From assembly GCA_026671195.1 (NCBI GenBank), contig JAPOHD010000020.1, positions 186,001-250,000 on the forward strand: 64,000 nt of DNA, given 5' to 3'. The position numbers and the translations under genes were made by a program. Of this stretch, positions 14,077-30,848 are shown in pieces (position 1 is the first letter of the stretch; the number at the start of each line of letters is the position of its first letter). Source of the stretch: Draconibacterium aestuarii (lineage in GTDB: Bacteria; Bacteroidota; Bacteroidia; Bacteroidales; Prolixibacteraceae). The notes beneath the pieces were generated by a model, which saw only the letters and a list, made by a program, of their open reading frames with translations, did not search any database and was not told the origin of the DNA.

Positions 14077-14107
14077 TACCATTCGAAACGGGATTACATA
14101 AAAAAGT

Positions 14108-14143
14108 AACTACCCACCCTGGTATACAGTGGGTAGTTTTTTT
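14108..14143 (+). terminator. Rho-independent terminator of the ACP-nagB-DUF4954 operon
   Basis: A perfect 10-bp stem (AACTACCCAC with GTGGGTAGTT), an 11-base loop and a run of T follow the DUF4954 stop codon. Confidence 0.9.
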
Positions 14144-14281
14144 GTTGGTAATCCCGAATTGATTAGTGGATAACCACGAGTCGAAAATACATTTTCTTTT
14201 GTTTTGAAACAAACTTTTATGCCTTTGAAAAATGGTTATAAAACAGAAAGTTTGCTGACAATATTATTTTTTGAGAAGAAT

Positions 14282-14470
14282 TTATACGTTCGATTTTTTA
14301 ATGGATTGTATTGGTTTAATCACAACCTCAGCACCACACGAAGGACAAATATAAATTTCGCAGCCGGTACAGGCAAAACAGTTGCTGCATGTTCGGGGCA
14401 CATCGATATTCGAAAACTGAAACCCGCATGCCTGGCATAAATAGATCTTTTCTTTTTTCTGGCCCAGCAT
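14282..14470 (-). CDS. Small four-CxxC zinc-ribbon-like protein
   Basis: 62 residues with eight cysteines in four CxxC pairs: C12/C15, C28/C31, C34/C37 and C42/C45. It has no signal peptide or membrane segment. The arrangement suggests two zinc ribbons or a zinc/iron-binding knuckle. Its ATG overlaps the stop codon of the upstream permease (TAATG), so it is translated as the last gene of the metal ABC importer operon. I do not recognise a named family. A role in buffering or sensing the imported metal is inference from context. Confidence 0.65.
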   Translation of the reverse strand: MLGQKKEKIYLCQACGFQFSNIDVPRTCSNCFACTGCEIYICPSCGAEVVIKPIQSIKKSNV

Positions 14471-15279
14471 TACAGAAATGATTTAATAACCTTTAACCCC
14501 CCAAATATAATTACCAGTGTAAAAATAATGGATGCTCCGGATGGAATGTTCAGAAAATAAGAAATAAACATACCGGCCATTGTTCCGATGAAAGCAAATA
14601 CCGACGATAAAATAAGCAGGCGTTTAAAGTCTTTTGTAAAAAGATTTGCTGTTGCCTGTGGAATGGTTAGTAACGATAATATCAGAATAATACCTACCAC
14701 ACGAATATTCAAAACAACGGTAAGTGCAATTAAAATCATGGTAAGATAATTGAACATAGCCACCGGCAATCCGGCAGTTTGAGCATACTCTTCGTCGAAA
14801 GCAATGTATAGAATATTGCGGAAAAAGAATGTAAAAAATGAAATGATTACCACATTCAGTAATAACATCCACCAAAGTTCTGCTACTGTTACCGTTAGTA
14901 TATTCCCAAAAAGGTAACTCATCAGATTAGGAGTATATCCCGGAGTTAGAAAAACAAAAATAATCCCGAGCGCCATACCCAGCGACCACCAGATAGCAAT
15001 GGACGAATCTTCGCGAATTTGGGCAACCTTTGTAAAAAACTGGATACCAAGAGCCGACATCACTGCAAACAATACGGCACCAAGAAGCGGATTAAATCCC
15101 AGAAAAAATGCCAGACCAATACCTCCAAATGATGCATGTGTAATTCCGCCGCTAATAAAAACAATGCGGCGTGCAACAATGTAACCTCCGATTATTCCGC
15201 ACGAAATACTGGCAAAAACAGCTGCTAAAAGAGCTTTCTGAAAAAAGTCGTAAGAAAACAATTCAATAATGGCGCTCAT
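14470..15279 (-). CDS. Metal ABC transporter permease (ZnuB/MntB family)
   Basis: 269 residues, strongly hydrophobic with about eight membrane segments and the glycine-rich cytoplasmic helix typical of metal-type ABC-3 permeases (VGIILILSLLTIPQATANL). It forms the inner-membrane channel of a zinc or manganese importer. It starts two bases after the ATPase stop codon and overlaps the next small gene by one base. The metal cannot be read from this subunit; the His-containing binding protein upstream favours zinc. Confidence 0.88.
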   Translation of the reverse strand: MSAIIELFSYDFFQKALLAAVFASISCGIIGGYIVARRIVFISGGITHASFGGIGLAFFLGFNPLLGAVLFAVMSALGIQFFTKVAQIREDSSIAIWWSLGMALGIIFVFLTPGYTPNLMSYLFGNILTVTVAELWWMLLLNVVIISFFTFFFRNILYIAFDEEYAQTAGLPVAMFNYLTMILIALTVVLNIRVVGIILILSLLTIPQATANLFTKDFKRLLILSSVFAFIGTMAGMFISYFLNIPSGASIIFTLVIIFGGLKVIKSFL

Positions 15280-15280
15280 A

Positions 15281-16027
15281 TTAATGTTGATGGTGCTTTA
15301 AAATGGTATGTGGAATTTCTCCGTGAGAAATAATTTGAATCGGACAATTATAACCATTAAGTTGTTCCTGGCTTATAACGTTACTCGGATGATAATGCAA
15401 ATTGTTGTTTACGCAGGCAATGGTTTTTACGTGGCTCGAAATCGTACCAATATCGTGCGACACTAAAACAATAGCAATTTTTTCGTTTAAATGGCGCAAC
15501 TTTTCATACAGCTCTCCTTCAAAACGATTGTCAACAAAAGTATCGGGTTCATCCAAAATCAGAAGTTTAGGATCGCTTAACAAAGCACGACATAAAAATA
15601 CCCGTTGCATTTGCCCACCCGAAAGTTCGCCAATGGCCTTGTTTCGAATATCGGCCACACCCATTTCACGGAGCAGATCATCCACCCTTCCCTTCGCCTC
15701 AGTCTTTGCCCTTTTTGTATTTTCCATTATCGATCCCGACAGCACTACATCAAAAACCGTTATCGGAAACTTTCTGTCGATGTGGCGAACCTGCGGCAAA
15801 TAACCAATCGGTTTTTTTCTTCCCCTCAAATCGTGGCGAAATAAAACTTGGCCTTCTTCCGGTTTTAACAATCCTAAAATCGCTTTTAGCAAAGTTGTTT
15901 TGCCTCCACCATTCGGACCAATTACACCCAAAAAATCTCGGTCGAAAATCTCCAGATTCACATGCTGAAGTACCGGTACCTTATCGTAACCAACCGTTAA
16001 ATTTTCTATTTTTAGTAATGGTTCCAT
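15281..16027 (-). CDS. Metal ABC transporter ATP-binding protein
   Basis: 248 residues with Walker A GPNGGGKTT (about 37-45), signature LSGGQMQRV and Walker B LLILDEPD. The last is followed by TFVD rather than the more usual TAGVD. The C-terminal extension after residue 200 includes two nearby His (LHYHPS) and ends HHQH. Its ATG overlaps the stop of the substrate-binding protein gene (TAATG), so synthesis is coupled. It drives the importer with the permease downstream. Confidence 0.9.
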   Translation of the reverse strand: MEPLLKIENLTVGYDKVPVLQHVNLEIFDRDFLGVIGPNGGGKTTLLKAILGLLKPEEGQVLFRHDLRGRKKPIGYLPQVRHIDRKFPITVFDVVLSGSIMENTKRAKTEAKGRVDDLLREMGVADIRNKAIGELSGGQMQRVFLCRALLSDPKLLILDEPDTFVDNRFEGELYEKLRHLNEKIAIVLVSHDIGTISSHVKTIACVNNNLHYHPSNVISQEQLNGYNCPIQIISHGEIPHTILKHHQH

Positions 16028-16902
16028 TAAAAATTTTGAATTAGAATATCGGTCATATTCCTTAAATTATCTTCCCATTCGGGATTTAATGGCCACACCT
16101 GAATAATTTCGCCGCCAATTTCATTTGCAAAAACCCGGGCATGATCCCGATCAAATTCACTTTGAATGTAAATCGTTTTAATATTTTCCTGATGTGCCAT
16201 ATCAACCATGTTTTTCAAATGTTGTGGTGTTGGCTCTTTCCCTCCCGATTCGAGTGAATATTGTTCCAAACCGTACTCGCGTGCATAATACGAAAGGCTC
16301 GGATGAAAAACAATGAACTTCCTGCCTTTATAAGGGTTAAGTTTGTTACTGAGTTCAATATTCAACTCATCACACTCTTTTACAAATCGCATGTAATTGG
16401 CTTTGTACTCAGCTGTTTTTTCGGGTTTTAAATCAATTAATTCATCCAAAATACGTTTTGTCATTTGTTTCACCATAACCGGCGACAACCATACATGCGG
16501 ATCTACACCTTCAATATGAACATGATCTCCATGTTGTTCCATTTTATCAGCGATCAAATCAAGCCCATCGGCTATATTTACCACTTTCATATTTGTATTA
16601 GCCTGTGCTATTTTATCTTTCCACGAATGCTCAAAACCAATGTAACCAATACGAAACCAAACCGCCGAGCGAGAAATATCTTTCAATTGCGAAGGGAGTA
16701 ATGTATAAGCTGCCGGACTCGAGCCCGGAGGAATAAGCACATTAATCTGGAAATCGTCACCCGCAATTTTTTTCACAAACGTTTGTTGCGGTAAAATACT
16801 AACGGTTACAACGTCGCTACCAACTTGTTTCTTCTTACTTTTTTCCGAACCGCACGAAGTTACAACCAAGGCAACTACTAAAAACAAAATAATTTTCTTC
16901 AT
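16027..16902 (-). CDS. Zinc-type ABC transporter substrate-binding lipoprotein
   Basis: 291 residues with a lipoprotein signal (lipobox VVTSC, Cys 17). Metal-ligand regions of the ZnuA/TroA fold are visible: a short His-rich stretch (EQHGDHVHIEG), DPHVWLSP, VFHPSLSYYAREYGL and a C-terminal EFDRDHARVF. The first canonical His of the family (usually in a PHxYEPTP-like block) is absent; here it reads SPAAYTLLP. The nearby GFEHSW could supply a substitute His, which I cannot verify. It is the first gene of the four-gene importer operon. Confidence 0.85.
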   Translation of the reverse strand: MKKIILFLVVALVVTSCGSEKSKKKQVGSDVVTVSILPQQTFVKKIAGDDFQINVLIPPGSSPAAYTLLPSQLKDISRSAVWFRIGYIGFEHSWKDKIAQANTNMKVVNIADGLDLIADKMEQHGDHVHIEGVDPHVWLSPVMVKQMTKRILDELIDLKPEKTAEYKANYMRFVKECDELNIELSNKLNPYKGRKFIVFHPSLSYYAREYGLEQYSLESGGKEPTPQHLKNMVDMAHQENIKTIYIQSEFDRDHARVFANEIGGEIIQVWPLNPEWEDNLRNMTDILIQNF

Positions 16903-16985
16903 GTGTTATAAAATGAATGTTTCAACTTAACAAAAACTATACAAATTTAGTTCTATGTTTATTAAAAAAATACAAATAATCTTGT

Positions 16986-17252
16986 TCACCTATTTTTCTT
17001 CTTTTCTTTAGGAGGTACAGGATCGTAACCATGTGTTCCCCATGGATGACATTTTGAGATACGTTTAGAGGTTAATATAAAACCTTTAATGGGGCCATGA
17101 ATTTTTATGGCCTGAACAGCATATTCTGAACAAGTTGGAACATGCCGGCACGAGGCCGGGGTTAATGGAGAAATTCCATATTTATAAATATAAATCGGAA
17201 TCAATAGAATCCATCCCACTACTTTCACTATTTGTTTTCCTAACCTGTTCAT
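16986..17252 (-). CDS. yidD: Membrane protein insertion efficiency factor YidD
   Basis: 88 residues from the ATG at 17252. The longer GTG-started frame at 17300 adds 16 residues not found in the family. Hallmarks are [19 protein letters not shown] and [17 protein letters not shown], with an N-terminal amphipathic or hydrophobic helix. YidD assists YidC-mediated insertion of inner-membrane proteins. It is not next to rpmH, rnpA or yidC here, unlike the classical arrangement. Confidence 0.93.
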
Positions 17253-17462
17253 TTTTCCCTTTACAAAGCTACAATTTAAATCTATGTGTACGAAACACAC
17301 TAAGTATTAGGAACAAACTGTCTTAAAAAAAGTTAACTCTTGTTTTAATTTAAAATAAATAGGTGTATTACTGGTAATTGTGTTTAAAGAATTGTATAAT
17401 ATTTTTAAATTTGCTGAGCCACAACTTAAAAATATTAAAAACAAGTAAATTAAACATACACA

Positions 17463-18440
17463 ATGAAGAAAGTTGCAATAGGTGTTGATATTGGCGGAAC
17501 AAATACCGCTATTGGGATTGTCGATGAAGCTGGGAATGTAATGGTTAAAGATAATATTACCACTCCTTCTCATGGCGATATAGATCGTTATATTTCGGAT
17601 TTGGCAATAGCTATTCAGGAATTAATAAAATCAGTTAAGCTGTTAAATAGTGAGCTCGAAATTTTAGGAATTGGTATTGGTGCACCAAACGGAAACTACT
17701 ACAGCGGTACTATTGAATATGCTCCCAACTTATCATTCAGAGGAGTAGTTCACCTGGTTAAGCTACTTCGTGCACATTTCCCCGAGATGCAGGCACTTGC
17801 TTTAACTAACGATGCCAATGCTGCGGCTATTGGCGAAATGATATATGGTGGCGCCAAAGACATGAAAAACTTTGTAATGTTTACATTGGGTACAGGTGTT
17901 GGAAGCGGTATTGTTGTTAATGGCGACCTTGTATATGGTCATGACGGATTTGCCGGCGAATGTGGACACACTACACTCATTCCTGGCGGACGTTTGTGCG
18001 GATGTACAGCTCTTGGTCACCTGGAAGCCTATTGTTCGGCTTCGGGAATGAAACGTACAGCTTTTGAGATAATGGTTCAGGATAACGCAACCGACAGTTT
18101 ATTGGCCGACAAATCATTTAACGAACTTGATTCGAAAATGATTTATGAGGCGGCTCAAAAAGGCGATAAAGTAGCACTGGAAGTTTTTGAAAAAACCGGC
18201 GCCTGGTTGGGACAAGGTTTGGCCGACACTGTTCATCACTTGAGTCCTGAGGCGGTATTCTTATTTGGTGGCCCAACAGCTGCAGGCGACTACATTTTCA
18301 AGCCAACCAAAGAAAGCATGGAAAAACACCTGCTCCCTATTTTTCAAGACAAAATTAAAATTCTTCCTTCGCAACTGAAACCGGGTGATGCTGCTATTGT
18401 CGGTGCCAGTGCGTTAGTTTGGAAAGAACTGAACAAATAG
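17463..18440 (+). CDS. ROK-family glucokinase
   Basis: 325 residues, a pure kinase with no DNA-binding domain. ATP motif VDIGGTNTAIGIV opens the protein. The catalytic Asp is D117 in TNDANAAAIGE, followed by GTGVGSGIV and the ROK zinc motif GECGHTT...CGCTALGHLE. It should phosphorylate glucose or a related hexose in the cytoplasm, for example glucose from the maltodextrin locus. It is monocistronic with a strong terminator 28 bp downstream. Confidence 0.88.
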   Translation: MKKVAIGVDIGGTNTAIGIVDEAGNVMVKDNITTPSHGDIDRYISDLAIAIQELIKSVKLLNSELEILGIGIGAPNGNYYSGTIEYAPNLSFRGVVHLVKLLRAHFPEMQALALTNDANAAAIGEMIYGGAKDMKNFVMFTLGTGVGSGIVVNGDLVYGHDGFAGECGHTTLIPGGRLCGCTALGHLEAYCSASGMKRTAFEIMVQDNATDSLLADKSFNELDSKMIYEAAQKGDKVALEVFEKTGAWLGQGLADTVHHLSPEAVFLFGGPTAAGDYIFKPTKESMEKHLLPIFQDKIKILPSQLKPGDAAIVGASALVWKELNK

Positions 18441-18468
18441 GAATACAATAAAAAGTATAATAATTAAG

Positions 18469-18506
18469 GGGCTGTCCATAAAGTAATTTGGACAGCCCTT
18501 CTTTTT
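18469..18506 (+). terminator. Rho-independent terminator of the glucokinase gene
   Basis: A perfect 10-bp stem (GGGCTGTCCA with TGGACAGCCC), a 10-base loop and a T-rich tail follow the stop codon by 28 bp. Confidence 0.9.
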
Positions 18507-18550
18507 GTTGTCCCTTTTTTATGCTCAATTCTGTTTTGTAACTTTACTAA

Positions 18551-20482
18551 ATGGTACGAATTCTTGTCTCAATTCTGTTTATAATCGTCTTTAATCTATT
18601 TGCCCAAGGACAAAATCCGGCGCTTTTAACAGATAAAATTGCCATTCAGGAAAGCCAAAACCACAGGATGAAATCAGCTTTTAAAGAAACCGGCAATTAT
18701 GCTGAAACAGATTTCATTTATCAACGAATGAAGTGGAACATTGATCCAGCAGTTCGGTATATTTCAGGAAAAATCACAACACATTTTAAAAGTAGCGTTT
18801 CAGACCTAACTGAAATCACGTTCGATTTGAGCAGTGCACTTGAGGTGGATTCCATCATTCAGAAAAATAAGAAGATTGAATTTACACATGAAACTGACAT
18901 CGTAACCATACCTCTTCAAACCTCGTTATCAGAAAACCAAATCGATTCTTTAATTATTTACTACAAAGGAGTTCCTCCTGAAACAGGATTTGGATCGTTT
19001 ACCCAAACCATACACGGAATAAATAATACACCAATTATCTGGACACTTTCCGAACCTTACGGAGCAAAAGAATGGTGGCCTTGCAAACAATCGTTGGCTG
19101 ATAAAATTGATTCGATTGACATAATTGTACACTGCCCGGAGATGTACAAAACGGCAAGCAACGGTATTGTTGTTTCAGAAACGGTGAACAACGGAAAACG
19201 AACAATACACTGGCAACACCGCTTTCCAATTACAACCTACCTGGTTGCCATTGCAGTTACCAATTACGAAAGTTATTCCGATCATCTGGATCTGAACAAT
19301 GGCCGACAAATTGAAATACTGAATTATGTTTATCCCGAAGACCTGGAGACAGCCAAAACCCAAACACCGGTAACATTAGAGATAATTGACCTGTTCAACA
19401 ATTTAATAGGCGAGTATCCTTTTGCATCTGAAAAATACGGGCATGCACAATTTGGGTGGCTAGGTGGCATGGAACACCAAACTATGAGTTTTATGGGTTA
19501 TTTCAGTTTTGGGCTTATTGCCCACGAACTGGCACACCAATGGTTTGGCAATTATATTACACTTGGCTCGTGGCAGCACATTTGGCTCAACGAAGGTTTT
19601 GCGACCTATCTTACCGGGCTTGCTCACGAACACCTGGCGGAGGATTATTATTGGGGGGTATGGAAAAATTCTTACAAAAACCACGTAGTAAGCCAACCCG
19701 ATGGTTCCGTTTTTGTGCAAGACACCTCGTCGATTAACCGCTTGTTCGATTCAAGGCTTTCGTATGCAAAAGGTGGTTTTTTGCTGCACATGCTACGTTG
19801 GATTCTGGGAGATGAAGTATTTTTTAATGCACTTACGAATTACTTTGCCGACGAAAAAATTGCGAATGGTTTTGCTCTTACTCAAGATTGGATTACACAC
19901 GTTGAAACTGCAGGCGACACCACCCTAACCGGCTTTTTTAACGATTGGTTTTATGGTGAAGGGTATCCAATTTATACCATTAACTACCAGCAATACCATC
20001 CCGATTCGCTTATCGTTCAACTTTCACAAACCACTTCTCATACATCGGTCGATTTTTTTGAAATGCCGCTGCCGATTCGTGTTTATGCCCCCAACAAAAC
20101 TGACTCAACCGATTTTAGGCTAAACAATACTTATAACCAGCAGATGTTTGTTCTGAATCCCGGATTTAGTGTGGCAGAAATTGTAATTGATCCTGACGAC
20201 TGGATACTTTGTAAAACAGATAATATTGTTGAAACACCAATCATTTTTGCAAAAAACGAAGTTCTGGTTTTCCCTAATCCAACCACAAACAAAGTCAATC
20301 TTAGAATTCCCGGAAATGAATGGATGCTAAAAACAACATTTTATTCAATGAAAGGCGCTTGTGTAGAACAAGTGCTTACCTCAAACGATGAAATCGATAT
20401 TTCGAAACTTCCAACGGGTACCTATTTAATTCAAATTGAAACCAATCTGTCACTCTACTCCAGAAAAATAGTCAAAAAATAA
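18551..20482 (+). CDS. Secreted M1-family metallopeptidase with T9SS sorting domain
   Basis: 643 residues. A signal peptide (residues 1-21) is followed by an M1 aminopeptidase-like body. GGMEHQ is the exopeptidase block, and the zinc site is HELAH (H325, E326, H329) with E348 in WLNEGF. The C-terminal part (about 570-643) is a type IX secretion sorting domain: VFPNPTTNKVNL, a FYSMKG strand, LPTGTYLIQI and a basic KIVKK end. The enzyme is therefore expected to be exported by the T9SS encoded at 25-31 kb and anchored or released at the surface. It would cut N-terminal residues from peptides. Monocistronic. Confidence 0.9.
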   Translation: MVRILVSILFIIVFNLFAQGQNPALLTDKIAIQESQNHRMKSAFKETGNYAETDFIYQRMKWNIDPAVRYISGKITTHFKSSVSDLTEITFDLSSALEVDSIIQKNKKIEFTHETDIVTIPLQTSLSENQIDSLIIYYKGVPPETGFGSFTQTIHGINNTPIIWTLSEPYGAKEWWPCKQSLADKIDSIDIIVHCPEMYKTASNGIVVSETVNNGKRTIHWQHRFPITTYLVAIAVTNYESYSDHLDLNNGRQIEILNYVYPEDLETAKTQTPVTLEIIDLFNNLIGEYPFASEKYGHAQFGWLGGMEHQTMSFMGYFSFGLIAHELAHQWFGNYITLGSWQHIWLNEGFATYLTGLAHEHLAEDYYWGVWKNSYKNHVVSQPDGSVFVQDTSSINRLFDSRLSYAKGGFLLHMLRWILGDEVFFNALTNYFADEKIANGFALTQDWITHVETAGDTTLTGFFNDWFYGEGYPIYTINYQQYHPDSLIVQLSQTTSHTSVDFFEMPLPIRVYAPNKTDSTDFRLNNTYNQQMFVLNPGFSVAEIVIDPDDWILCKTDNIVETPIIFAKNEVLVFPNPTTNKVNLRIPGNEWMLKTTFYSMKGACVEQVLTSNDEIDISKLPTGTYLIQIETNLSLYSRKIVKK

Positions 20483-20491
20483 TTGGTACTA

Positions 20492-20896
20492 CTACCAGTT
20501 AAACCTGATTGTCTGTTTTAAATCGGGGTGTAAACTCTGTGGAACCGGACTGATTCCTGCCACACTTTCAATCAGTTGTTTTTCATCATCGGTATACTCT
20601 TTTTTCGGAAAAGTAAATTCAACTATTACCTCTGCCACTCGACGTGGATCTGATGCCATAATTTTGGTAATATCCACTTCGGTCCCTTCAATATCGATAT
20701 CATTGTCGCGGGCTTTAATTCCCATAATTGTTAAAATACAACTCCCCAAAGCAGTGGCCAGCATATCTGTTGGCGAAAAGTATTCTCCTTTTCCCTGATT
20801 ATCGGTCGGCGCATCGGTAATCACCTTATTCCCCGATTGTAAATGTTCGTTTTCGGTACGAAGCCCTCCCAGATAAATTGTTTTAACAGTTGTCAT
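20492..20896 (-). CDS. OsmC-family protein
   Basis: 134 residues. The central helix carries SPTDMLATALGSCILT (C53), the position of the first conserved Cys of OsmC/Ohr proteins. The second family Cys, normally in a block like KxCPVS, is Ser here (GISPVPQ, S116). Thiol peroxidase chemistry by the usual Cys pair is therefore not possible as written. It may be a non-peroxidase OsmC member or use another thiol. Convergent with the M1 peptidase gene. Confidence 0.85.
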   Translation of the reverse strand: MTTVKTIYLGGLRTENEHLQSGNKVITDAPTDNQGKGEYFSPTDMLATALGSCILTIMGIKARDNDIDIEGTEVDITKIMASDPRRVAEVIVEFTFPKKEYTDDEKQLIESVAGISPVPQSLHPDLKQTIRFNW

Positions 20897-21098
20897 TATT
20901 GTAGTTATTAAATTACTTACTATGCATTTCTCTACTCATAAATATACAATTATTTTCTCCATCTTCTTCTTATCCTTCATCAACACCATTAACATCCATA
21001 TCCAGCCTGCATAAAGTTATTTTAGACGATCTTGTTCAAAAAAAAGGTTACCGTATTACAAACACAGCAGCCCAATTCATTTAAAATTTTCTATCTTC

Positions 21099-21126
21099 GT
21101 GCTACGAATAACAAAAAACGTAACAC
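21099..21126 (+). promoter_or_regulatory. Inverted-repeat operator upstream of the NikR-family gene
   Basis: GTGCTACG (21099-21106) and CGTAACAC (21119-21126) form an inverted repeat, 7 of 8 matching, with a 12-bp spacer. It ends just before the ATG at 21128, so binding would block initiation. A -7-like TATCTTCG abuts it at 21092-21099. The same architecture recurs at 21546-21573. Confidence 0.6.
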
Positions 21127-21127
21127 C

Positions 21128-21529
21128 ATGTCGGTTACAAGATTTGGAGTATCATTAGACGAGGAACTATTAAAGGCTCTTGATGATTATGTCTCGGATA
21201 ATGCATTTGCAAACCGATCGCAGGCCATTCGTCACCTGATTGAAAAAAATATGGTGGAAGAAAAATGGAAATGCGATAATATTGTTGCCGGAGCAGTAGT
21301 ACTGGTATACAATCACGATAAAAAAGAAATACTTAAAAAGTCAACTGACATTCAGTACTATTACAAAGACTTTGTACTCTCGGTTCAGGGCTTTTATTTA
21401 AATAACATAAATTACATGGAAATTATTGCGGTTAAAGGCCCTTCGAAAAAGCTGACTGAAATTTCGGAGAAACTAATCAGCATTAAAGGAATTCAACATG
21501 GAAAACTTGTTATGAGTAAAGCGCAGTAA
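21128..21529 (+). CDS. nikR: NikR-family ribbon-helix-helix regulator lacking nickel ligands
   Basis: 133 residues from the ATG at 21128; a TTG-started extension from 21032 is rejected because NikR starts here. Residues 3-40 are the ribbon-helix-helix DNA-binding domain (VTRFGVSLDEELLKALDDYV, NRSQAIRHLI). Residues 52-133 are the ACT-like ligand domain (EIIAVKGPSKKL, GIQHGKL). An ungapped alignment with E. coli NikR, from memory, places its nickel ligands H76, H87, H89 and C95 on Y77, G88, Y90 and Y96. None is retained. The protein probably responds to another signal. It lies 55 bp upstream of a TonB receptor gene, and both carry the same operator. Confidence 0.85.
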   Translation: MSVTRFGVSLDEELLKALDDYVSDNAFANRSQAIRHLIEKNMVEEKWKCDNIVAGAVVLVYNHDKKEILKKSTDIQYYYKDFVLSVQGFYLNNINYMEIIAVKGPSKKLTEISEKLISIKGIQHGKLVMSKAQ

Positions 21530-21545
21530 TTTTTTTACCTTACGG

Positions 21546-21573
21546 GTAACACGAAACAACAATAACGTAACAC
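21546..21573 (+). promoter_or_regulatory. Second copy of the NikR-type operator, upstream of the TonB receptor
   Basis: GTAACACG (21546-21553), a 12-bp spacer and CGTAACAC (21566-21573). The right half is identical to that at 21119-21126. The left half keeps the GT and ACG ends but not the three middle bases. The site ends 11 bp before the receptor ATG. Confidence 0.55.
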
Positions 21574-21584
21574 GATATCAACTT

Positions 21585-23435
21585 ATGAAGAATCGATTTG
21601 TTCAAATAATTCTTGTGTTTTCATTCTGTTCTATTTTCACGAATGGGCTTTACGCACAAATGCATTTTTCAACTGAAGATACCATTGAAATCAACGAAGT
21701 GATTGTTACCGGAACACAAGTAAAGGTCAACAGAAACAATGTTCCAATGTCGGTATCCGTAATCAACAAAAACCAAATTGAAGAAAGCGACGAATCGGCA
21801 CTATTACCCGTTTTGAATGGCCGTGTACCCGGACTTTTTGTGACTGAACGCGGTGTTACTGGTTTTGGCGTTGCCGCAGGTTCGGCCGGCCAGATTTCTA
21901 TTCGTGGAATTGGTGGTAATCCTACTACCGGCGTTTTAATGCTTATCGACGGCCATCCGCAATTTATGGGCATAATGGGGCACCCGCTACCTGATTCGTA
22001 TGTAGCTTCCGATGTGGAGAAAGTGGAAGTGATACGCGGCCCCGCTTCTGTTCTTTATGGTTCCAATGCCATGGGAGGAGTTATCAACATTATCACCAAA
22101 AAACAAGTGGAAGAAGGCATACATGGAAATACCCGTATTTCATACGGATCATTCAATACGCAGAAATATATGGGTTCTGCCGGATTCAAAAGGAATAAAT
22201 TCAGTGCATTTATTTCGGGTAATCATGACCAAACAGATGGGCATCGGCCTAATTCCGACTTTAAAATCAGCAATGGCTATTTAAAGTTAGGATATGATTT
22301 TAATGAACACTTTTCGGTATCAACCGACTTTAGTCTGGCCACTTTTAAATCATCGGATCCAGGTCCTGATACAATTAATGCTTCGCCAGGAGAAAGTATA
22401 GATATTCTGCGCGGTTACTGGGCGTTTACGCTTCTAAATGAATTTGAAAAAGCATCTGGCGGCCTCAAGGTCTTTTATAATTTTGGGGAACACGAAATTA
22501 CGGATGGATTTCATTCAACTGATCACAATTATGGAATGAACATTTACGAAGCATTTCACCTGTTTAAAGGAAATACAATAACAACCGGATATGATTTTAT
22601 GAATTACGGTGGCCTGGCTGAAAACAAAAAAATAATGGGTGGCCAGGGAATTGTTTTTGCCGACACCACCCTTACCGAACAAGGTATTTATGCCTTAATT
22701 CAACACACCGTTACAGAAAAGCTTACATTTAATGCCGGACTTCGCTATCATCATCACAGCAAATATGGCGGTCAGTGGGTTCCTTCTCTGGGTTTCGCCT
22801 ATGAACTGCAAAAACAAACAATCTGGAAAGGATCTGTATCAAAAGGATTCAGAAGCCCAACCATGCGTGAATTATTTTTGTGGGGACCAAATCCGAATTT
22901 GAATCCGGAAAGTATCTGGAATTATGAAACCGGGTTATCAAAGTCCTTTTTTAATCAGAAAATATATACCGAACTTACACTTTTTATGCTGAAAGGCGAC
23001 AACCTGATTGTGAATACAGGCCCGCCAAATGGTTTACAAAACACAAGCGAAGTATCGAATAAAGGTATCGAATTTACTTTATCTGCGGAAGCGGCCAAAA
23101 ACCTGAATTTAAATGCTACTTACAGCTACATAAATATGGAAAATCCGGTTTATGCTACTCCGGAACACCATCTGTTTTTAAATGCCCGATATCGTCTTAA
23201 AAAGCTTCAATTGTCGGCAAGTTTTCAGCAAATTTCCAATCTGGATAACGATGCTTCGGTCATAGTTAACCTAGAAAGTTACACCCTGGTAAATGCCAAA
23301 GCAACTTATAACTTAACCCGAAACCTGAAAATATTTATCAGTGGTAAAAATTTGCTGAATACAAAATACGAGGTAAACCGTTATTACGATATGCCGGGAA
23401 CTACAGTCTTTTCAGGACTTAACCTGATCTTTTAA
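21585..23435 (+). CDS. TonB-dependent outer membrane receptor
   Basis: 616 residues, the short siderophore/cobalamin-receptor type rather than SusC. Signal peptide (about 1-25), then a TonB-box-like region (TIEINEVIVTGTQ) and a plug domain with SIRGIGG, LIDGHPQ and EVIRGPASVLYGSNAMGGVINI. The rest is a 22-strand-type barrel ending in aromatic GLNLIF. It imports a scarce ligand using TonB energy. Pairing with a NikR-family regulator suggests a metal or metal chelate, but the ligand cannot be read from the sequence. Probably under the operator at 21546-21573. Confidence 0.9.
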   Translation: MKNRFVQIILVFSFCSIFTNGLYAQMHFSTEDTIEINEVIVTGTQVKVNRNNVPMSVSVINKNQIEESDESALLPVLNGRVPGLFVTERGVTGFGVAAGSAGQISIRGIGGNPTTGVLMLIDGHPQFMGIMGHPLPDSYVASDVEKVEVIRGPASVLYGSNAMGGVINIITKKQVEEGIHGNTRISYGSFNTQKYMGSAGFKRNKFSAFISGNHDQTDGHRPNSDFKISNGYLKLGYDFNEHFSVSTDFSLATFKSSDPGPDTINASPGESIDILRGYWAFTLLNEFEKASGGLKVFYNFGEHEITDGFHSTDHNYGMNIYEAFHLFKGNTITTGYDFMNYGGLAENKKIMGGQGIVFADTTLTEQGIYALIQHTVTEKLTFNAGLRYHHHSKYGGQWVPSLGFAYELQKQTIWKGSVSKGFRSPTMRELFLWGPNPNLNPESIWNYETGLSKSFFNQKIYTELTLFMLKGDNLIVNTGPPNGLQNTSEVSNKGIEFTLSAEAAKNLNLNATYSYINMENPVYATPEHHLFLNARYRLKKLQLSASFQQISNLDNDASVIVNLESYTLVNAKATYNLTRNLKIFISGKNLLNTKYEVNRYYDMPGTTVFSGLNLIF

Positions 23436-23560
23436 TCACACCTCAATGGTATCCTAAAATTTGAAATTGAGAATACAATTTTCATTACAGTATTATTGTT
23501 CCAGCGTAATTCAGGTTAAACTGAATATATTATTTAAACGAATCAAGCATCCGAAAAAAA

Positions 23561-24913
23561 TTACTGCTTGGATAATTCATCTCTAAAAGAAGTACGCACA
23601 CATCGGAAACCAATGTATGATTTTGTTGTATCCTGGTATTCGAAAGTACGGGTAGCAGTCTGAATATAGTAAGCCACATCTTTCCACGATCCTCCGCGTA
23701 CAACCTTCCGCTTCATAACCGGTGGATCGTCGGGACGGGCATTGTATTGAATTTCCGGATTAAAGTCATTTATAGTATTGTATCCCGCTTCGTAATAAGC
23801 AGAGGAGGTCCATTCCGCCACATTTCCGGCCATATCGTACACTCCGTATGGGTTCGGATCAAATTCTCCACCCCTCATTGTTGTTGTAGTAGAAGGGCTG
23901 TCTGCAACATAATTTCCACGCAGAGGTTTAAAATTGGCCACAAAACAACCGTTAACATTCCGGGTATAGTAACTACCCCATGGATACATGTTGTTATGCA
24001 TTCCACCACGGGCAGCAACCTCCCATTCTGATTCAGTAGGGAGTCTGAAATCATGAGCCGGTGTTTCATTGAACCGCTCTGATGTAATAGAACGTAATCC
24101 GTTTCGCCAATTACAAAATGCCTTGGCTTGTGTCCAGGTCACACCTACCACCGGATAATCGTCGAAACCTACATGGGAAAAATATTTCTTTGTATAGGGT
24201 TCATTATACGCATAAGTAAAATCACGTATCCAAACCAAGGTATCGGGATAAACAGGAACAGATTCTCGCATTAAAAAAGAACTCCGGTTTTCAATTGGAA
24301 CAAGTTCTCCCTTTTCATTTACAACAGAACCTTCGTATTTTTGTGTTTCGAAGTTGAAACTATTGCTTCGTTTTGCAGCTTGTTTATAATCCACCCAATA
24401 ATATTCGTACACCAATCTTCTTGTGTCAATTTCTTTTTTGTAATTAAAACGGTCCTGTTCCGGAAGATAAAGTTCATCCATTGCCATTTGGTAATCCGGA
24501 TCATTCCACTCAATACGTTCTTCCCAATTAATTTCAGGTTCTTTCAGCGGTGCACCGTATTTATCCTCGGTTATCAGAAAATCATTATACGTTTGTCCCA
24601 GTAATTCTCTGGCCTTTTTGTCTCTTACCCAATATACAAATTGTCGGTACTCATTATTGGTGATTTCGGTATCATCAATCCAAAAGGCTTCGGTTGATAC
24701 CGTTTTGGCTGGGCTCGGTTCATATATTTCATCGTCATTGGGACCAATTGTATACGAACCTCTCGGAATATAGACCATTCCATAAGGAATTGGCTCAAAC
24801 CATTTTTCGGAAGTCCCTTTACCCAGAGTTAAGTATTGGCTGGTAGTATCTTTCTGGCATGAAGAAAAAAGCATCACTGCTGCAATAAATAGATATGTGA
24901 GTGCTTTTTTCAT
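23561..24913 (-). CDS. Second GldK/PorK-like lipoprotein
   Basis: 450 residues with a lipoprotein signal (lipobox LFSSC, Cys 19) and a formylglycine-generating-enzyme-like fold. Shared blocks include PYGMVYIPRGSYTIGP, DDTEITNNEYRQFV, YPVVGVTW, YDMAGNVAEWTSSAY and KSYIGFRCVR. Length and sequence match the gldK at 28445-29791 nearly throughout, well over half identical by eye, so it is a paralogue, not the longer GldJ. GldK proteins form the periplasmic ring of the type IX secretion system with GldN. This copy lies downstream of a terminator after gldN. Confidence 0.85.
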   Translation of the reverse strand: MKKALTYLFIAAVMLFSSCQKDTTSQYLTLGKGTSEKWFEPIPYGMVYIPRGSYTIGPNDDEIYEPSPAKTVSTEAFWIDDTEITNNEYRQFVYWVRDKKARELLGQTYNDFLITEDKYGAPLKEPEINWEERIEWNDPDYQMAMDELYLPEQDRFNYKKEIDTRRLVYEYYWVDYKQAAKRSNSFNFETQKYEGSVVNEKGELVPIENRSSFLMRESVPVYPDTLVWIRDFTYAYNEPYTKKYFSHVGFDDYPVVGVTWTQAKAFCNWRNGLRSITSERFNETPAHDFRLPTESEWEVAARGGMHNNMYPWGSYYTRNVNGCFVANFKPLRGNYVADSPSTTTTMRGGEFDPNPYGVYDMAGNVAEWTSSAYYEAGYNTINDFNPEIQYNARPDDPPVMKRKVVRGGSWKDVAYYIQTATRTFEYQDTTKSYIGFRCVRTSFRDELSKQ

Positions 24914-24970
24914 TTATCTCAAAATCCTGATGATATTTAAGAAACGTATCTTTTTCTTCTAAATTGCTTC

Positions 24971-24998
24971 AAAAAAAAGCCTTATGTTTCCATAAGGC
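24971..24998 (-). terminator. Terminator between gldN and the second gldK copy
   Basis: On the minus strand GCCTTATG and CATAAGGC form a perfect 8-bp stem with a four-base loop, followed by eight T. It is 21 bp beyond the gldN stop codon and 58 bp ahead of the second gldK-like ATG. Confidence 0.9.
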
Positions 24999-25019
24999 CG
25001 CATATAAATCTTCCCTGAA

Positions 25020-25871
25020 TTAATATTCCCAAAGATCTTGTTCGAAATTAAAGATTTTATCTTCAATTTTCTTCGATTCCAACATGGCTTGTTTACCCAA
25101 AAGATAAGAGCTAATGTCGCGGTTGTTATATATATTCGATTCCTTTACAATATAACTGCTAAACATTCTCTTAATAAATACATCGTCGAAAGAATTCTGA
25201 CGCGCCGTATTATAAGGATTCTGAACCAGATTGGTTGCCAATAACCCACGAGCTTCGGGATAGTATACCCAAAACACTTTTTGGCGCTGAACCTGTCCTG
25301 AAGTATCGCCTTCGCGAACATACTCGCGAATTGGGCACAATCCCAATATTCTAACATTCAACGTAGAAGTCTGCTTATCGAAATACCACTCCTCTTTTAC
25401 CATATATTGCTTAATCTCATTGGGTCTGATATCCCCGGCAACAAGAACTTCTGTTTCTTCACCTGTATCAAAGTCGATTTTTTTCTGAGTAGTTGCCTGT
25501 GCCCCAAAAATCTCCTTCACCTGAGCAAAACTCATTGGAATTTTGAAATCATCATCCGTTCTGGCGTCATAAGGAGTAATTTGTCCACTTTCAATCCCTT
25601 GTAACAATAGGTTAATCAAGTTAATCCGGTCTGCAATTTCTATTGTTGGATAATACAACGGGATATTCATTTTCTCGCGCAAATCGATGATACGCCAAAG
25701 TGTTTTCGACCAAAAAACATCTGCTTCCCGAACAGAAACCAACGGCATCGGTTTTTTGGCATAAATATCGTTTTGCTTATAAGCTCCATTTACGATTTGT
25801 GCATTTGTACTTTTGTGTACAAAGCCCATCATAAGTGCAACTATTCCGATATAGACAACTAACTTTCTCAT
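25020..25871 (-). CDS. gldN: Type IX secretion/gliding motility protein GldN (PorN)
   Basis: 283 residues with a signal peptide (MRKLVVYIGIVALMMGF...NAQ). The family core is visible: KPMPLVSVREADVFWSKTLWRIIDLREKMN, PLYYP, and later LGLCPIREY and FWVYYPEAR. GldN binds GldK to form the large periplasmic ring of the T9SS. It begins 6 bp after gldM, in the conserved order K-L-M-N, and ends at a strong terminator. Confidence 0.95.
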   Translation of the reverse strand: MRKLVVYIGIVALMMGFVHKSTNAQIVNGAYKQNDIYAKKPMPLVSVREADVFWSKTLWRIIDLREKMNIPLYYPTIEIADRINLINLLLQGIESGQITPYDARTDDDFKIPMSFAQVKEIFGAQATTQKKIDFDTGEETEVLVAGDIRPNEIKQYMVKEEWYFDKQTSTLNVRILGLCPIREYVREGDTSGQVQRQKVFWVYYPEARGLLATNLVQNPYNTARQNSFDDVFIKRMFSSYIVKESNIYNNRDISSYLLGKQAMLESKKIEDKIFNFEQDLWEY

Positions 25872-25877
25872 ATTTCC

Positions 25878-27488
25878 TTATTTTATTTTAAACGATATCG
25901 GATCGAGATCCCTGACAATTCCATCATCTCCCCGTGCCTTAATATCGCCGATATAAACTATACTATTTACATTTACTCGTTTTAACGCCGCCTTTTGCTC
26001 GTCCGTAAACCGGTTCGATCGGGAAGGATAACGGTTTGTAAAACCTCCTTCGGCACTTGTTTCAATTGTAAACTGAGTAATTGTGTATTTAAAATCGAAA
26101 TCAAAGTCTACCAATACTGCCAATACTCCATCCTGAATTCCCAGAACTTCTTTTCGAATATTACCTCCCGACTGTCCGCCAATCTGCGCAACCGGATCAG
26201 GAACCTTTTTAACGCGCCAACTGGTCGTGTTTATCAACCGTCGTTGACCACCAATAGTGGCATAAACCGAGACTTTTGTTTTTGTCTGATTTGGATCGAG
26301 TTCAGTGGGTTCGATCACATAATTATCTCCCACTTTAGTAATTTTACCATTTGTCATGGTAATGTCCAGATTTTCGTTTGGAATAGCTCCGCCACCCACT
26401 TCAAACGGATTTTTTAATCCCTTGTAAAAAACATTCATTTTTGAGGCCGACATCGTTACTGTTGGCTTAGCCACCTGGTATTCCTGTTCAAAAGGATAAC
26501 TTTTAATAATTCCTCCCGGAGTTTTGTATTTAATAAGTCCACTCCATTTAAATACTCCTGCTCGTTCTGTACTTCCTCTATAGGTAGCTTTTCCATCTTT
26601 TACTTCAACCTCTTTGTTATTAATAAAAATCTGAGGCTGCTGGGTAGTATCTTCGGCTGCTAAGAACACATCGGCCTGGTATGTATCGCCCATTAAAACT
26701 ATATTTGAGTTGGCGATAACCTGTGCCCCAAGTCGGTTAAATTTGAAGGATCCGGCATCAATTTCGGAATACAAGTATTTGGCAATATTTGCTTCCGCAT
26801 TTTTTACATCAATTTGAATCTTTGAAAGTAAAGTTAATACAGCTATCAAAGGTCGATCTTCAAAATGCTCTGACTCCCATGTTTTACGATTACTCTTTTT
26901 ACTTGCTGACTGGATTGGATCTGAAGTATTTAGTTCGCGTGAAATGGTGGCAATTAAATCCTTATCATCTTCGTTTATTAACGAAATAACAAAATCGCGA
27001 TAACTTTCAATCTCTGCTTTAAGATCGTTGGCTCGCTTTTGGGTTACCATTAATTCGGAAGGTGAATTCAAGTCATCTTCTTTTTCAATTTCAATCGTGT
27101 CTCCATCAACAGTAACATGGTAATAATCCTCGCTAGTAACCGGATTTTCTTTGTTTACCACTTTGTAACCTGAATATTTTACCAATTCATCTTTAAGTAT
27201 GGAAACATACTTAATCATTGCTGCTGATCGCGTTTTCAGCTCATCAGCTTTCTTTTTCCATTCGCCAACTTTCGTTGGATTATCAATATACGCCTGTTCA
27301 AACGAAGAATAAATCTGCGCATTTTGCATGTCCACTGCCTTAAGTGTCTGCAAAAGACTCGAGTCAACCACCCTGAAAGCCTCAAGCACCTCTGCCGCAA
27401 CGTTTAACGCCAACATCGCGGTAAGGACAATGTACATCATGTTTATCATTTTTTGCCTCGGGGTCTCCGGGCAATTTTTTGCACCCAT
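25878..27488 (-). CDS. gldM: Type IX secretion/gliding motility motor protein GldM (PorM)
   Basis: 536 residues. The N-terminus is cytoplasmic (GAKNCPETPRQKMINMMY), with one membrane helix (about 14-35). A long periplasmic part of four domains follows, including TPGGIIKSYPFEQEYQVAKP and the FYKGLKNPFEVG block. GldM dimers inside a GldL ring transmit proton-motive energy from the inner membrane to the GldK/GldN ring. The length is typical. It follows gldL by 21 bp. Confidence 0.95.
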   Translation of the reverse strand: MGAKNCPETPRQKMINMMYIVLTAMLALNVAAEVLEAFRVVDSSLLQTLKAVDMQNAQIYSSFEQAYIDNPTKVGEWKKKADELKTRSAAMIKYVSILKDELVKYSGYKVVNKENPVTSEDYYHVTVDGDTIEIEKEDDLNSPSELMVTQKRANDLKAEIESYRDFVISLINEDDKDLIATISRELNTSDPIQSASKKSNRKTWESEHFEDRPLIAVLTLLSKIQIDVKNAEANIAKYLYSEIDAGSFKFNRLGAQVIANSNIVLMGDTYQADVFLAAEDTTQQPQIFINNKEVEVKDGKATYRGSTERAGVFKWSGLIKYKTPGGIIKSYPFEQEYQVAKPTVTMSASKMNVFYKGLKNPFEVGGGAIPNENLDITMTNGKITKVGDNYVIEPTELDPNQTKTKVSVYATIGGQRRLINTTSWRVKKVPDPVAQIGGQSGGNIRKEVLGIQDGVLAVLVDFDFDFKYTITQFTIETSAEGGFTNRYPSRSNRFTDEQKAALKRVNVNSIVYIGDIKARGDDGIVRDLDPISFKIK

Positions 27489-27509
27489 AAGCTTTCCTAG
27501 TTCAGAGTT

Positions 27510-28412
27510 TTACTTTTTGTAACTCATAGCACCCAACATGTTGCCATAAATTTCATTTAAAGCTGCTAAATTTTTGTTGAGCATTTCTGCATTCTCTTTG
27601 TATCTTTTTAGTTCGTCAACCGATGAAGTTAGAACACTATTCATTTCTGAGAGGTCCTCATTAAACTTCTGATTCGCTTTAAATTGCTCTTGAGTTTCTT
27701 GTAACTGACTTTCAAAGCTCGTATTTAAAGAATTCAGATTTTTATTCAACTTCTCCAGATTACCGGCATATTGTTTGGAACTATTCCCGATATGTTCCAG
27801 TTCTCCCGAAATCATCTGTGCCGACTTATCATAAGACGACGAAAGCCGATTCCCTGTTTCGGAGAGTTGTTTGGCTGCTACCGAATACGATTCTACCAAT
27901 GAATCAACTGATTTATTTATAGAGTCGTTGGCACGGTTATTTATCTGAGCAAATGAACTCATCGATTCTGAAGCAGTTCCCATATTTTTGACATACATAT
28001 CGGTTGCCAAAGTAGCTGAAGAAATATCGCTAATTCCCCGTGCGGTGTTACTCAGGTCATTTAAACCTTTTCCTACCTTATCCAGCAAGTCAGGTGTTAA
28101 ATCGTTACTACCCAGCAGTGTTTCCAGACCACCCTTTTTAGTTTGTAAGTCTTCAAAATCATCCAGTTCATAATCCTCCCTTAATTCAGGATAAACCTTA
28201 CTCCATTCAGGCATTTCTGTAGGTGGATCAAAAGCTGACAAAAAGAAAATGAATGCTTCAGTTAGCAATCCAACTGTCAACAATTCACCAGAGTATGGCC
28301 AGTGTTGTAATTTAAATAACGCACCAACCATTACAACTGCGGCTCCCCATCCATAAACATACCCCATGAATATTTTCCAGCGTTTCGACTTAAAAAGTTC
28401 TCCTATGTTCAT
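27510..28412 (-). CDS. gldL: Type IX secretion/gliding motility motor protein GldL (PorL)
   Basis: 300 residues with two membrane helices near the N-terminus (about 14-33 and 43-62). The conserved LFKLQHWPYSGELL link is present, as is a membrane Glu in the second helix (E52), the residue class known to couple protons in GldL. The remaining 240 residues are a long cytoplasmic coiled-coil-like region rich in Ser, Asn and Leu. It partners GldM as the rotary-type motor stator. It lies between gldK (32 bp gap) and gldM. Confidence 0.95.
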   Translation of the reverse strand: MNIGELFKSKRWKIFMGYVYGWGAAVVMVGALFKLQHWPYSGELLTVGLLTEAFIFFLSAFDPPTEMPEWSKVYPELREDYELDDFEDLQTKKGGLETLLGSNDLTPDLLDKVGKGLNDLSNTARGISDISSATLATDMYVKNMGTASESMSSFAQINNRANDSINKSVDSLVESYSVAAKQLSETGNRLSSSYDKSAQMISGELEHIGNSSKQYAGNLEKLNKNLNSLNTSFESQLQETQEQFKANQKFNEDLSEMNSVLTSSVDELKRYKENAEMLNKNLAALNEIYGNMLGAMSYKK

Positions 28413-28444
28413 ATAATTTTGGAATAAAGTTTAACATTTAAAAT

Positions 28445-29791
28445 CTAAAATTCTTCACCAAATGTTGATCGTACACAACGGAAACCAACATATGATTTTG
28501 TGGTATCCTGATATTCGTAATTTCTGGTTGACACCTGCACAAATTGAGAGATGTCCTTCCATGATCCTCCTCTGGTAACTTTTCGTTTCATTACAGGTGG
28601 ATCATCTTTACGCGCATTGTATGTAAATGTAGGATTCAAATCACTAAAATAGTTGTATCCTGCTTCATCGTATGCAGTACTTGTCCATTCTGCTACATTA
28701 CCAGCCATATCGTACAATCCATATTCATTTGGATCGTAACTTCCTACTTTGATAGTGGCAATGGCACCGTCTTCAACATAGTTACCTCGCAGCGGTTTAA
28801 AATTGGCCAAAAATACTCCTTTATCATCTCTTGGGTAATAACCACCCCAGGGATACATCGAAAATTCTTTGCCTCCACGTGCTGCATATTCCCATTCAAC
28901 TTCAGTAGGCAAACGATACTCCATTAAAGTAGGTTCTCCCCTTTCTGTTAAATAATCGGCTTGAATTTTGGTGCGCCAGTTACAAAAAGCATTCACCTGT
29001 TTCCAGGTTACACCAACCACCGGATATTCGTCGAACCCGGGATGAAAGAAATATCTTGTTGCAAGTGGTTCGTTATATGAGTAGGTAAAATCACGGATCC
29101 AACATAAAGTATCAGGATAAACATGCACCTGATCTCGCATCATAAATGAAGACCTGTTTTCGATGGGGACCAAGTCTCCATCTACATTATACACATTACC
29201 TTCGTACCGCTGGGTTTCATAATTATAACTATTGCTTCGTTTGGCCGCCTGATTCAAATCAACCCACCAATATTCAAAAACCAATTTCCGGGTATCAACT
29301 TCCTTTTTCCCAAAAAACCGCTCGTTTTCAGGCAAGTATAAATCTTCCATGGCCATTTGCATATCCGGATCTTCCCAGTCGATTTTCTCGCGCCAATTTA
29401 TTTTTGGAGGATCAATCGGATTTCCATTTTTGTCTTCGGTAATAAGAAATTCAGGGTACTGATCGCCCAACATTCTGCGAGCCATCGATTCTTTAACCCA
29501 ATCAACAAATTGACGGTATTCGTTATTTGTTATTTCGGTGTCATCCATCCAAAAAGGATCCTGTGATACTGTTTTTGTCGGTACTCCCCCACTACTCACA
29601 TCCTGATCGCTAGGCCCGATATTAAAACTTCCTCTTCGAATGTAAACCATCCCATAAGGTTGTGTTTCCTTAAATCGCTGCCTTTTTTGCACCCCAGTTA
29701 ACTCTCCGTTTCCACCGGAACCGCCACCCAGGCATCCGGTAAAACCAAGTGCAATTAAGAATACAACTGCAATTAAAAGTAGTTTCTTCAT
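28445..29791 (-). CDS. gldK: Type IX secretion/gliding motility lipoprotein GldK (PorK)
   Basis: 448 residues, lipoprotein signal with lipobox GFTGC (Cys 20) followed by a Gly-rich linker. An FGE/SUMF1-like fold covers the rest (PYGMVYIRRGSFNIGP, DDTEITNNEYRQFV, YPVVGVTW, LYDMAGNVAEWTSTAY, KSYVGFRCVR). GldK is a structural outer-membrane-anchored ring subunit of the T9SS and is not known as an enzyme. It is first of the K-L-M-N block and lies 112 bp after porP/sprF. A close paralogue sits at 23561-24913. Confidence 0.95.
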   Translation of the reverse strand: MKKLLLIAVVFLIALGFTGCLGGGSGGNGELTGVQKRQRFKETQPYGMVYIRRGSFNIGPSDQDVSSGGVPTKTVSQDPFWMDDTEITNNEYRQFVDWVKESMARRMLGDQYPEFLITEDKNGNPIDPPKINWREKIDWEDPDMQMAMEDLYLPENERFFGKKEVDTRKLVFEYWWVDLNQAAKRSNSYNYETQRYEGNVYNVDGDLVPIENRSSFMMRDQVHVYPDTLCWIRDFTYSYNEPLATRYFFHPGFDEYPVVGVTWKQVNAFCNWRTKIQADYLTERGEPTLMEYRLPTEVEWEYAARGGKEFSMYPWGGYYPRDDKGVFLANFKPLRGNYVEDGAIATIKVGSYDPNEYGLYDMAGNVAEWTSTAYDEAGYNYFSDLNPTFTYNARKDDPPVMKRKVTRGGSWKDISQFVQVSTRNYEYQDTTKSYVGFRCVRSTFGEEF

Positions 29792-29903
29792 AGTTTGTAT
29801 TTTTCTTTATCAGGTCTTCTATCAGATTCGTAAATATACTTATCCGCAATAAAATAATAAAATATTAACGTCTAATCCAAACACGTTTAAACATAAATTC
29901 AAA

Positions 29904-30848
29904 TCACAAGAACCTAATACTCTTATATTTTTGACTCCTATTTCTCTCTATATCAAGAGAATAATTTATAAATATTTCGTGTGATGCGAAACCATTCCTA
30001 CTCATAGCCGATGTAACCAAATCAAACGAATATCCAACTCGCAATCCATTAAATAATTCCACTCCCATCAATATGGCAACCGCATCCTGCACCCGATATG
30101 AAATTCCTCCCCAAAATCGATCGTCGTAAACCACATTTGCGTTCAAATCCATCTGCCACGAAGCCAGATCCGACTTAAACAAAAAAGACGGACGCACTTC
30201 AAATAACGGATCAGCTAGCTTAATATTGTAACCTCCCATTAAATAATAATGCCTTACAAGAAAGTCAGTTGCAACATCGTCGTACTTTACAGCAGCTTGA
30301 TTTAAATGTGTAACCGAAAATCCTGCATAGTACTTATTAGTATAAAGATAAGCTCCTAAACCAACATCCAAAGCCATCTGACTTGCTTCTCCCTGAGGAA
30401 TTGACGCATCCGATTCCGGTGGTGTATACATACCATCCTCCGGGATACTCCAATCTCCATTAATGCTGTAATTAAAAACTCCCGGTGCAATTCCTACTCC
30501 CAAAGTCCCCAAAGAAGTGGTGAATTTGTGCGAATAACTTAGGTTTACCCACATGTTATCGTAAAATCCCCACTGATCGCTTACAATATTAATTCCAACA
30601 CCACCCGGTCCTCCAAACGCATTAACTGCAGCATCAACGCTAAATACAAGCGTCTTGGGTGCACCTTCAACTCCCGACCACTGGTATCGATTTAATATGA
30701 GACCATTAATCGCATTGTCTGCACCTGCAAATCCCGGGTTTACACCTAATTTATAATACATGTTATTGGTGTACTGAGGATCCTGCTGACTATAAGCCGC
30801 GAGCTCTACCATTATCACTAAAAATAAAAAAGAAACAGTTCTTTTCAT
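29904..30848 (-). CDS. PorP/SprF-family type IX secretion outer membrane protein
   Basis: 314 residues with a signal peptide (MKRTVSFLFLVIMVELAAYSQ) and the opening QQDPQYTNNMYYKLGVNPGFAGA typical of PorP/SprF proteins. A beta-barrel-like body follows with many aromatic-ended strands (VNLSYSHKF, FWGGISYRV, GLRVGYSFDL). These proteins act with T9SS cargo, often adhesins carrying type B sorting domains. It heads the porP-gldKLMN cluster, the same order as the P. gingivalis por operon. Confidence 0.92.
   Translation of the reverse strand: MKRTVSFLFLVIMVELAAYSQQDPQYTNNMYYKLGVNPGFAGADNAINGLILNRYQWSGVEGAPKTLVFSVDAAVNAFGGPGGVGINIVSDQWGFYDNMWVNLSYSHKFTTSLGTLGVGIAPGVFNYSINGDWSIPEDGMYTPPESDASIPQGEASQMALDVGLGAYLYTNKYYAGFSVTHLNQAAVKYDDVATDFLVRHYYLMGGYNIKLADPLFEVRPSFLFKSDLASWQMDLNANVVYDDRFWGGISYRVQDAVAILMGVELFNGLRVGYSFDLVTSAMSRNGFASHEIFINYSLDIERNRSQKYKSIRFL

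Follow-up and report, generated by a model that had tools for sequence, protein, structure and literature searches.

NikR repressors, as described in E. coli, Helicobacter and Pyrococcus, share a ribbon-helix-helix (RHH) and ACT-like fold. They are tetramers with a metal site at the dimer-dimer interface, and the high-affinity nickel ligands of the E. coli protein are taken here to be H76, H87, H89 and C95. ACT-type domains are also known to bind organic ligands. Import and synthesis of vitamin B12, another metal cofactor, are controlled by cobalamin riboswitches. According to the available part of PMC545781, the NikR signal of delta-proteobacteria is GTGTTAC-N13/14-GTAACAC together with rearrangements of it.

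The locus studied here lies in a 64,000-nucleotide stretch (the window) of the Draconibacterium aestuarii genome. Its regulator resembles the NikR repressors in fold and, judged by its predicted operators, shares the halves GTGTTAC/GTAACAC with the delta-proteobacterial system, but differs from them in having lost all four nickel ligands and in its predicted targets, namely a TonB receptor and, in relatives, the synthesis of the nickel-pincer nucleotide (NPN). As with cobalamin riboswitches, a single control element would govern how a metal cofactor is imported or made; unlike them, that element is a protein that descends from a metal sensor, and its predicted cofactor is NPN. The features concerned are the following:

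21099..21126, + strand: predicted operator GTGCTAC-N14-GTAACAC, ending one base before the regulator start codon, with one mismatch to GTGTTAC-N14-GTAACAC and with halves conserved in congeners
21128..21529, + strand: NikR-like regulator of 133 aa without nickel ligands (Y77, G88, Y90, Y96), from homology and alignment
21546..21573, + strand: predicted operator GTAACAC-N14-GTAACAC, a direct repeat before the TonB gene and the sole exact GTRWYAC-N14-GTRWYAC match in the genome
21585..23435, + strand: TonB-dependent outer-membrane receptor of 616 aa (Pfam TonB_dep_Rec_b-barrel and Plug), predicted target of the regulator from gene order

A NikR fold without nickel ligands

The RHH and ACT-like architecture of NikR is present in the regulator, which matches NikR_C at 72.7 bits (Pfam, RHH_1 being marginally below its cut-off) and passes the cut-off of NF003381 (NCBIfam). 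A structure search matched 2bj9 and 2bj7 across residues 1-133, with ACT domains also among the fold matches, and the C-terminal domain of the AlphaFold monomer (mean pLDDT 81.7, pTM 0.57) superposes on nickel-bound NikR. In the alignment, the columns of the four E. coli ligands hold Y77, G88, Y90 and Y96, which bears out the original prediction that all of them are gone. That prediction would have been called into question by His or Cys ligands lying elsewhere in the protein, and none were seen in the alignment column table. Columns 63, 64 and 93, which are 91-95% His in ligand-keeping rows (defined by H/H/H/C at the four ligand columns), are H63, D64 and N93 in the window regulator, and the ligand-less groups are mostly non-His there. 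C49 is invariant across the 66 ligand-less rows tabulated. A single fixed replacement motif was ruled out, as the lineages differ (Y-G-Y-Y, K-S-Y-I, I-R-I-H, Q-Q-Y-C and others).

Gene decay, which had already been denied in the prediction, was ruled out by the complete reading frame and by dN/dS values of 0.01-0.03 where computable, most pairs involving the window sequence being saturated at synonymous sites. The C-terminal domain of the ligand-less regulators is under strong purifying selection and has many invariant residues. Hence, although the only known effector site has been lost, it is very improbable that the protein has lost its sensor function and become a ligand-independent repressor or DNA-binding protein.

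Distribution of the ligand-less regulators

Of 61 genomes (the window genome and its relatives), 40 carry NikR_C, with 43 matches in total; 30 of these loci were read as a set, the others only where their sequence was retrieved, and the 30 hold 27 ligand-less and 3 H/H/H/C regulators. A scan of genome contigs, referred to as the named loci and made of the best 80 of 411 relatives, gave 53 ligand-less and 27 H/H/H/C regulators, and LarC and LarA searches covered 50 of these 80 loci. A broader order sample, drawn evenly, consisted of 295 order-level genomes with a completeness of at least 90%. A NikR match was present in 77 of them, and 77 NikR rows from 73 genomes were readable (22 ligand-less, 55 H/H/H/C); seven loci failing the ORF rule were read separately, and weak matches to NikR_C only (G060, G154, G295, G381) were omitted.

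A tree was built from 138 non-identical rows and the Pyrococcus NikR after removal of the four ligand columns, the seven separately read loci being absent from it. On this tree, at least five changes of ligand state are needed. The window regulator sits in a ligand-less clade of 48 rows with support of 90/90, the alignment being short and many forks being without resolution. A clade with this pattern, which had been proposed as a check, exists in Bacteroidota.

Gene neighbourhood

Among the 27 ligand-less loci of the 61-genome set, the next gene encodes a TonB receptor in 21 and is larE in 6. The genetic linkage to a TonB receptor is therefore as stable as first supposed, the receptor directly following the regulator in 21/21 of the non-lar loci. 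In the larE context, the genes that follow are larC, larB and a UreH-like permease gene, i.e., the NPN pathway. All 12 lar-linked rows of the 138-row set are ligand-less, as compared with 0/64 H/H/H/C rows, and no lar-linked NikR with its nickel ligands kept was found among those read. Both contexts are mixed within the ligand-less clade of the Paludibacter group (lar at L081 and L082; TonB at L083, L084, L086, L089, L093, L094 and L098). The Mangrovibacterium and Sunxiuqinia genomes (L103, L118, L153) retain the regulator and have LarC, and a search of these three for a TonB receptor of the window receptor's family found none.

CbiM-type transporter genes adjoin only H/H/H/C regulators among the loci read, and a CbiO-like ATPase gene is also located behind the TonB gene at the ligand-less locus L123. 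In three further loci (L297, L310, L318), CbiM/CbiQ/CbiO-type transport genes are joined to lar genes in one operon, which is another link between nickel uptake and NPN synthesis.

Predicted operators

In the 6.37 Mb window genome, the one exact match to GTRWYAC-N14-GTRWYAC is in the gap between the regulator and TonB genes, and 10 of the 14 matches in six congeners are at the same locus; with the pattern reversed as a control, the window genome had 0 sites and the six congeners together had 3. When two mismatches were allowed, a site was found in this gap in 38/39 ligand-less and 16/16 H/H/H/C TonB-linked named loci. Both predicted sites of the window (21099-21126 and 21546-21573) are of the NikR type, their halves matching the signal and rearrangements given for delta-proteobacteria in the accessible part of PMC545781. 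On the basis of sequence, the ligand-less group is thus predicted to retain the operator of NikR, with a 14-base spacer between GTGTTAC/GTAACAC halves, in line with the operator conservation initially claimed. The ligand-keeping NikRs of Bacteroidia, located beside CbiMNQO, UreH-like permease or TonB genes, resemble the ligand-less ones in tree, in operators and, for some, in the TonB family, but differ by their H/H/H/C residues and by their lack of lar linkage.

A ZnuA/ABC_tran/ABC-3 metal ABC transporter is encoded at window positions 14470-16902 on the - strand, about 4 kb upstream of the regulator; the exact operator pattern has no match at its genes. On the other side, positions 23561-30848 (- strand) hold a gliding/type IX secretion-like set recognised by eye from the ORF list (GldK-like twice, GldL, GldM, GldN, PorP/SprF-like).

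Operator-like sites before distant lar operons

Seven genomes with a ligand-less NikR have an examined lar operon with no adjoining NikR (L285, L286, L064, L065, L320, L321, L068). An operator-like site (0 to 2 mismatches, N14) was found upstream of larE in 7/7 of these genomes as compared with 0/26 genomes with an H/H/H/C NikR and 0/8 without NikR (0/34 together), the mismatch threshold having been raised from 1 to 2 after weaker sites were seen (at 1: 4/6, or 4/7 with L068; controls 0 at both), two duplicate H/H/H/C loci having been removed (28 to 26) and L068 having been moved from the regulator-beside to the not-beside class after inspection. The background of such sites, with at most two mismatches and three spacings, is 0.14 per kb. 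The Fisher value of 4e-8 overstates independence because the seven genomes come from few lineages: G010 and G031 share one site position and sequence type, and the sites of G076, G080 and G090 are at -44/-45. At L068, what appears by eye to be a cut-off nikR-like start precedes the lar genes.

Two of the seven genomes, G010 and G031, carry a Y/G/Y/Y regulator of the window type beside TonB and a single NikR_C match each; in both genomes, TonB and lar are thus predicted to be under one regulator of this type. NikR_C copy number was searched outside G076, G080, G086 and G090, and extra NikR copies are possible in those four.

An NPN-dependent enzyme and the lar pathway

In the window genome, listed as 100% complete with 0.88 contamination, a profile search found no LarC, and LarE gave only sub-cut-off matches (best 37.8 bits vs a cut-off of 150). 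LarE above the cut-off is present in 14/61 genomes, namely the 13 LarC-bearing ones and the incomplete G014. The genome has one LarA-like gene (C4:236343-237623), which adjoins a PdxB-family gene and a sugar-acid-kinase-like gene, the latter scoring below its cut-off. Its product belongs to NF052594, nickel-dependent putative hexonate epimerase (667.4 bits vs a cut-off of 500), and its NPN-binding and catalytic residues R44, H74, H151, K161 and H177, equivalent to R75, H108, H174, K184 and H200, are invariant in the alignment. The H174 equivalent is followed by E-V, as reported for GntE enzymes in the available part of PMC11770544. As judged by the absence of LarC and LarE, this putative NPN enzyme is seemingly without its cofactor pathway. 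Among the genes searched for, the window genome offers no other nickel client. The converse, genomes with larB, larE and larC yet no larA, is mentioned in the accessible portion of PMC11796402.

This distribution was compared across genomes. LarC accompanies TonB-linked ligand-less vs H/H/H/C regulators in 0/21 vs 8/9 cases for the named loci, 1/16 vs 10/20 for the order sample and 2/20 vs 0/1 for the congeners. LarA is present with the TonB-linked ligand-less regulators in 13/21 named loci, 6/16 of the order sample and 19/20 congeners; the congener calls were made with Pfam PF09861, and absences among them, such as that in G022, are unsure because this profile scores the window genome's enzyme at just 31 bits. 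In the order sample, a ligand-less NikR was found in 5/20 LarA+/LarC- genomes vs 11/241 with neither gene (Fisher 0.004, kinship ignored). On supported branches, the tree-corrected pair tests had just 3 to 5 pairs, too few for adequate power, and no pair ran contrary. No NikR match was found in 12 of the 20 LarA+/LarC- genomes, and two more (G286, G350) have an H/H/H/C NikR beside TonB.

The 11 order-sample genomes with a ligand-less NikR and neither LarA nor LarC (nine of the Q/Q/Y/C type, two others) are in keeping with another explanation, in which the regulator responds to some unrelated small molecule, e.g., an imported compound or a pyridine nucleotide that serves as a precursor, and its association with lar stems from a common precursor or from another logic of regulation. 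The varied residues at the former nickel site and the ACT domains among the fold matches point the same way. This explanation is considered rather improbable, as lar linkage, like the operators of distant lar operons, goes with ligand-less regulators only. Q/Q/Y/C-type NikRs (K or R first in two) of genomes that lack LarA and LarC adjoin TonB at L211-L215, L218-L221 and L156.

The TonB receptor

Among NCBIfam models, the receptor has its best E-value with TIGR01779 (TonB-B12), from which it could be a vitamin B12 receptor and the regulator could serve cobalt or B12 supply. However, the score is 161.3 bits vs a cut-off of 599.7, no Rfam family, cobalamin riboswitch included, was found in window positions 14000-30000, and the operator before the receptor gene is of the NikR type. 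We regard a role in B12 supply as most improbable.

In TonB trees, the receptors of ligand-less and H/H/H/C regulators are intermixed, and the substrate is therefore not readable from the receptor itself. In ligand-keeping relatives, the receptor likely imports a nickel chelate. This could extend to the window if the regulator has a different site with which it still senses a metal, nickel or other: it shares its operator, fold and TonB family with the ligand-keeping NikRs, the TonB trees are mixed and C49 is invariant. On the other hand, the four ligands and most of the surrounding His are gone, their replacements vary by lineage and, with LarC and LarE missing, the known pathway would not let the LarA-like enzyme make use of free nickel. 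Metal sensing and nickel chelate import are accordingly judged unlikely for the window.

The presence of the TonB family failed as a separate indicator of genomes with LarA but no LarC, as it was found in 4/12 LarA+/LarC-/NikR- genomes (one a partial match of 396 bits) vs 5/12 controls without LarA, LarC and NikR. In three such LarA+ genomes (L273:4353-11601; L275:4115-9879; L276:2629-7936), it is accompanied by an ECF-S-like membrane gene and a phosphoribosyltransferase gene, with DUF362 and NapH-like ferredoxin genes in two of them, and the L273 cluster is tail-to-tail with the operon of a LarA-like gene. These are possibly NikR-free salvage clusters; the control G054, without LarA, also has an ECF-S-like gene beside TonB. 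Near the TonB/NikR loci, a nucleoside hydrolase gene recurs; two long copies were checked (L108:6883-8337, L278:8254-9738), and in both the hydrolase is fused to an FmdE domain. The gene was dropped as support for nucleotide salvage, since it goes mainly with ligand-keeping NikRs (15 H/H/H/C loci, some from the same record twice; 2 ligand-less, from one record; 2 without NikR).

Proposed role

The window regulator may well be a repressor of NikR descent that has lost its nickel site and answers to the NPN pool, the TonB receptor salvaging NPN or a precursor. Against this reading stand the ligand-less regulators, mostly Q/Q/Y/C, of genomes with neither LarA nor LarC, the LarA+/LarC- genomes with no NikR or with an H/H/H/C NikR beside TonB, and the failure of TonB presence to follow LarA. 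It would bind its operators as NikR does, its effector would be NPN and the effector-bound form would repress. In relatives it would control the larE/larC/larB synthesis operon, adjacent or distant, through the same operator; in the window organism, it would control the receptor, whose cargo would be NPN or a precursor. A Ni2+-sensing repressor over NPN synthesis would switch synthesis off when nickel is abundant; a sensor of the finished cofactor would give feedback over NPN synthesis or import. The initial suggestion of a re-purposed sensor is supported; among its proposed signals, the lar context favours an organic one, either an organonickel cofactor or an intermediate of the pathway, over a redox signal or a different metal. 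More tentatively, NPN could be a traded vitamin, which non-makers take up by way of a dedicated TonB receptor, either as such or as the base or nucleoside, while a NikR descendant senses the finished organonickel cofactor.

To our knowledge, no NPN importer or NPN-sensing regulator is known, and the window case, if true, would be the first. The name LarR is not free for it because it is used for the unrelated regulator of the lar genes of Lactobacillus plantarum. In the literature searched, which included few subscription journals, nothing was found that links NikR with lar genes, or TonB or uptake with NPN, and the available parts of PMC11796402 and PMC7583248 do not mention a case of LarA without LarC/LarE or NPN import.

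What the window regulator has in common with NikR is its fold and its DNA-binding side; its sensing side and its predicted regulon set it apart. A metal sensor has apparently turned into a cofactor sensor without giving up its operator, and homology-based annotation as NikR should hence not be equated with nickel sensing. Across a whole bacterial group, an annotated nickel regulator becomes a predicted cofactor regulator. This would provide a genetic handle on NPN supply and might explain how LarA-type enzymes can function in genomes without LarC and LarE.
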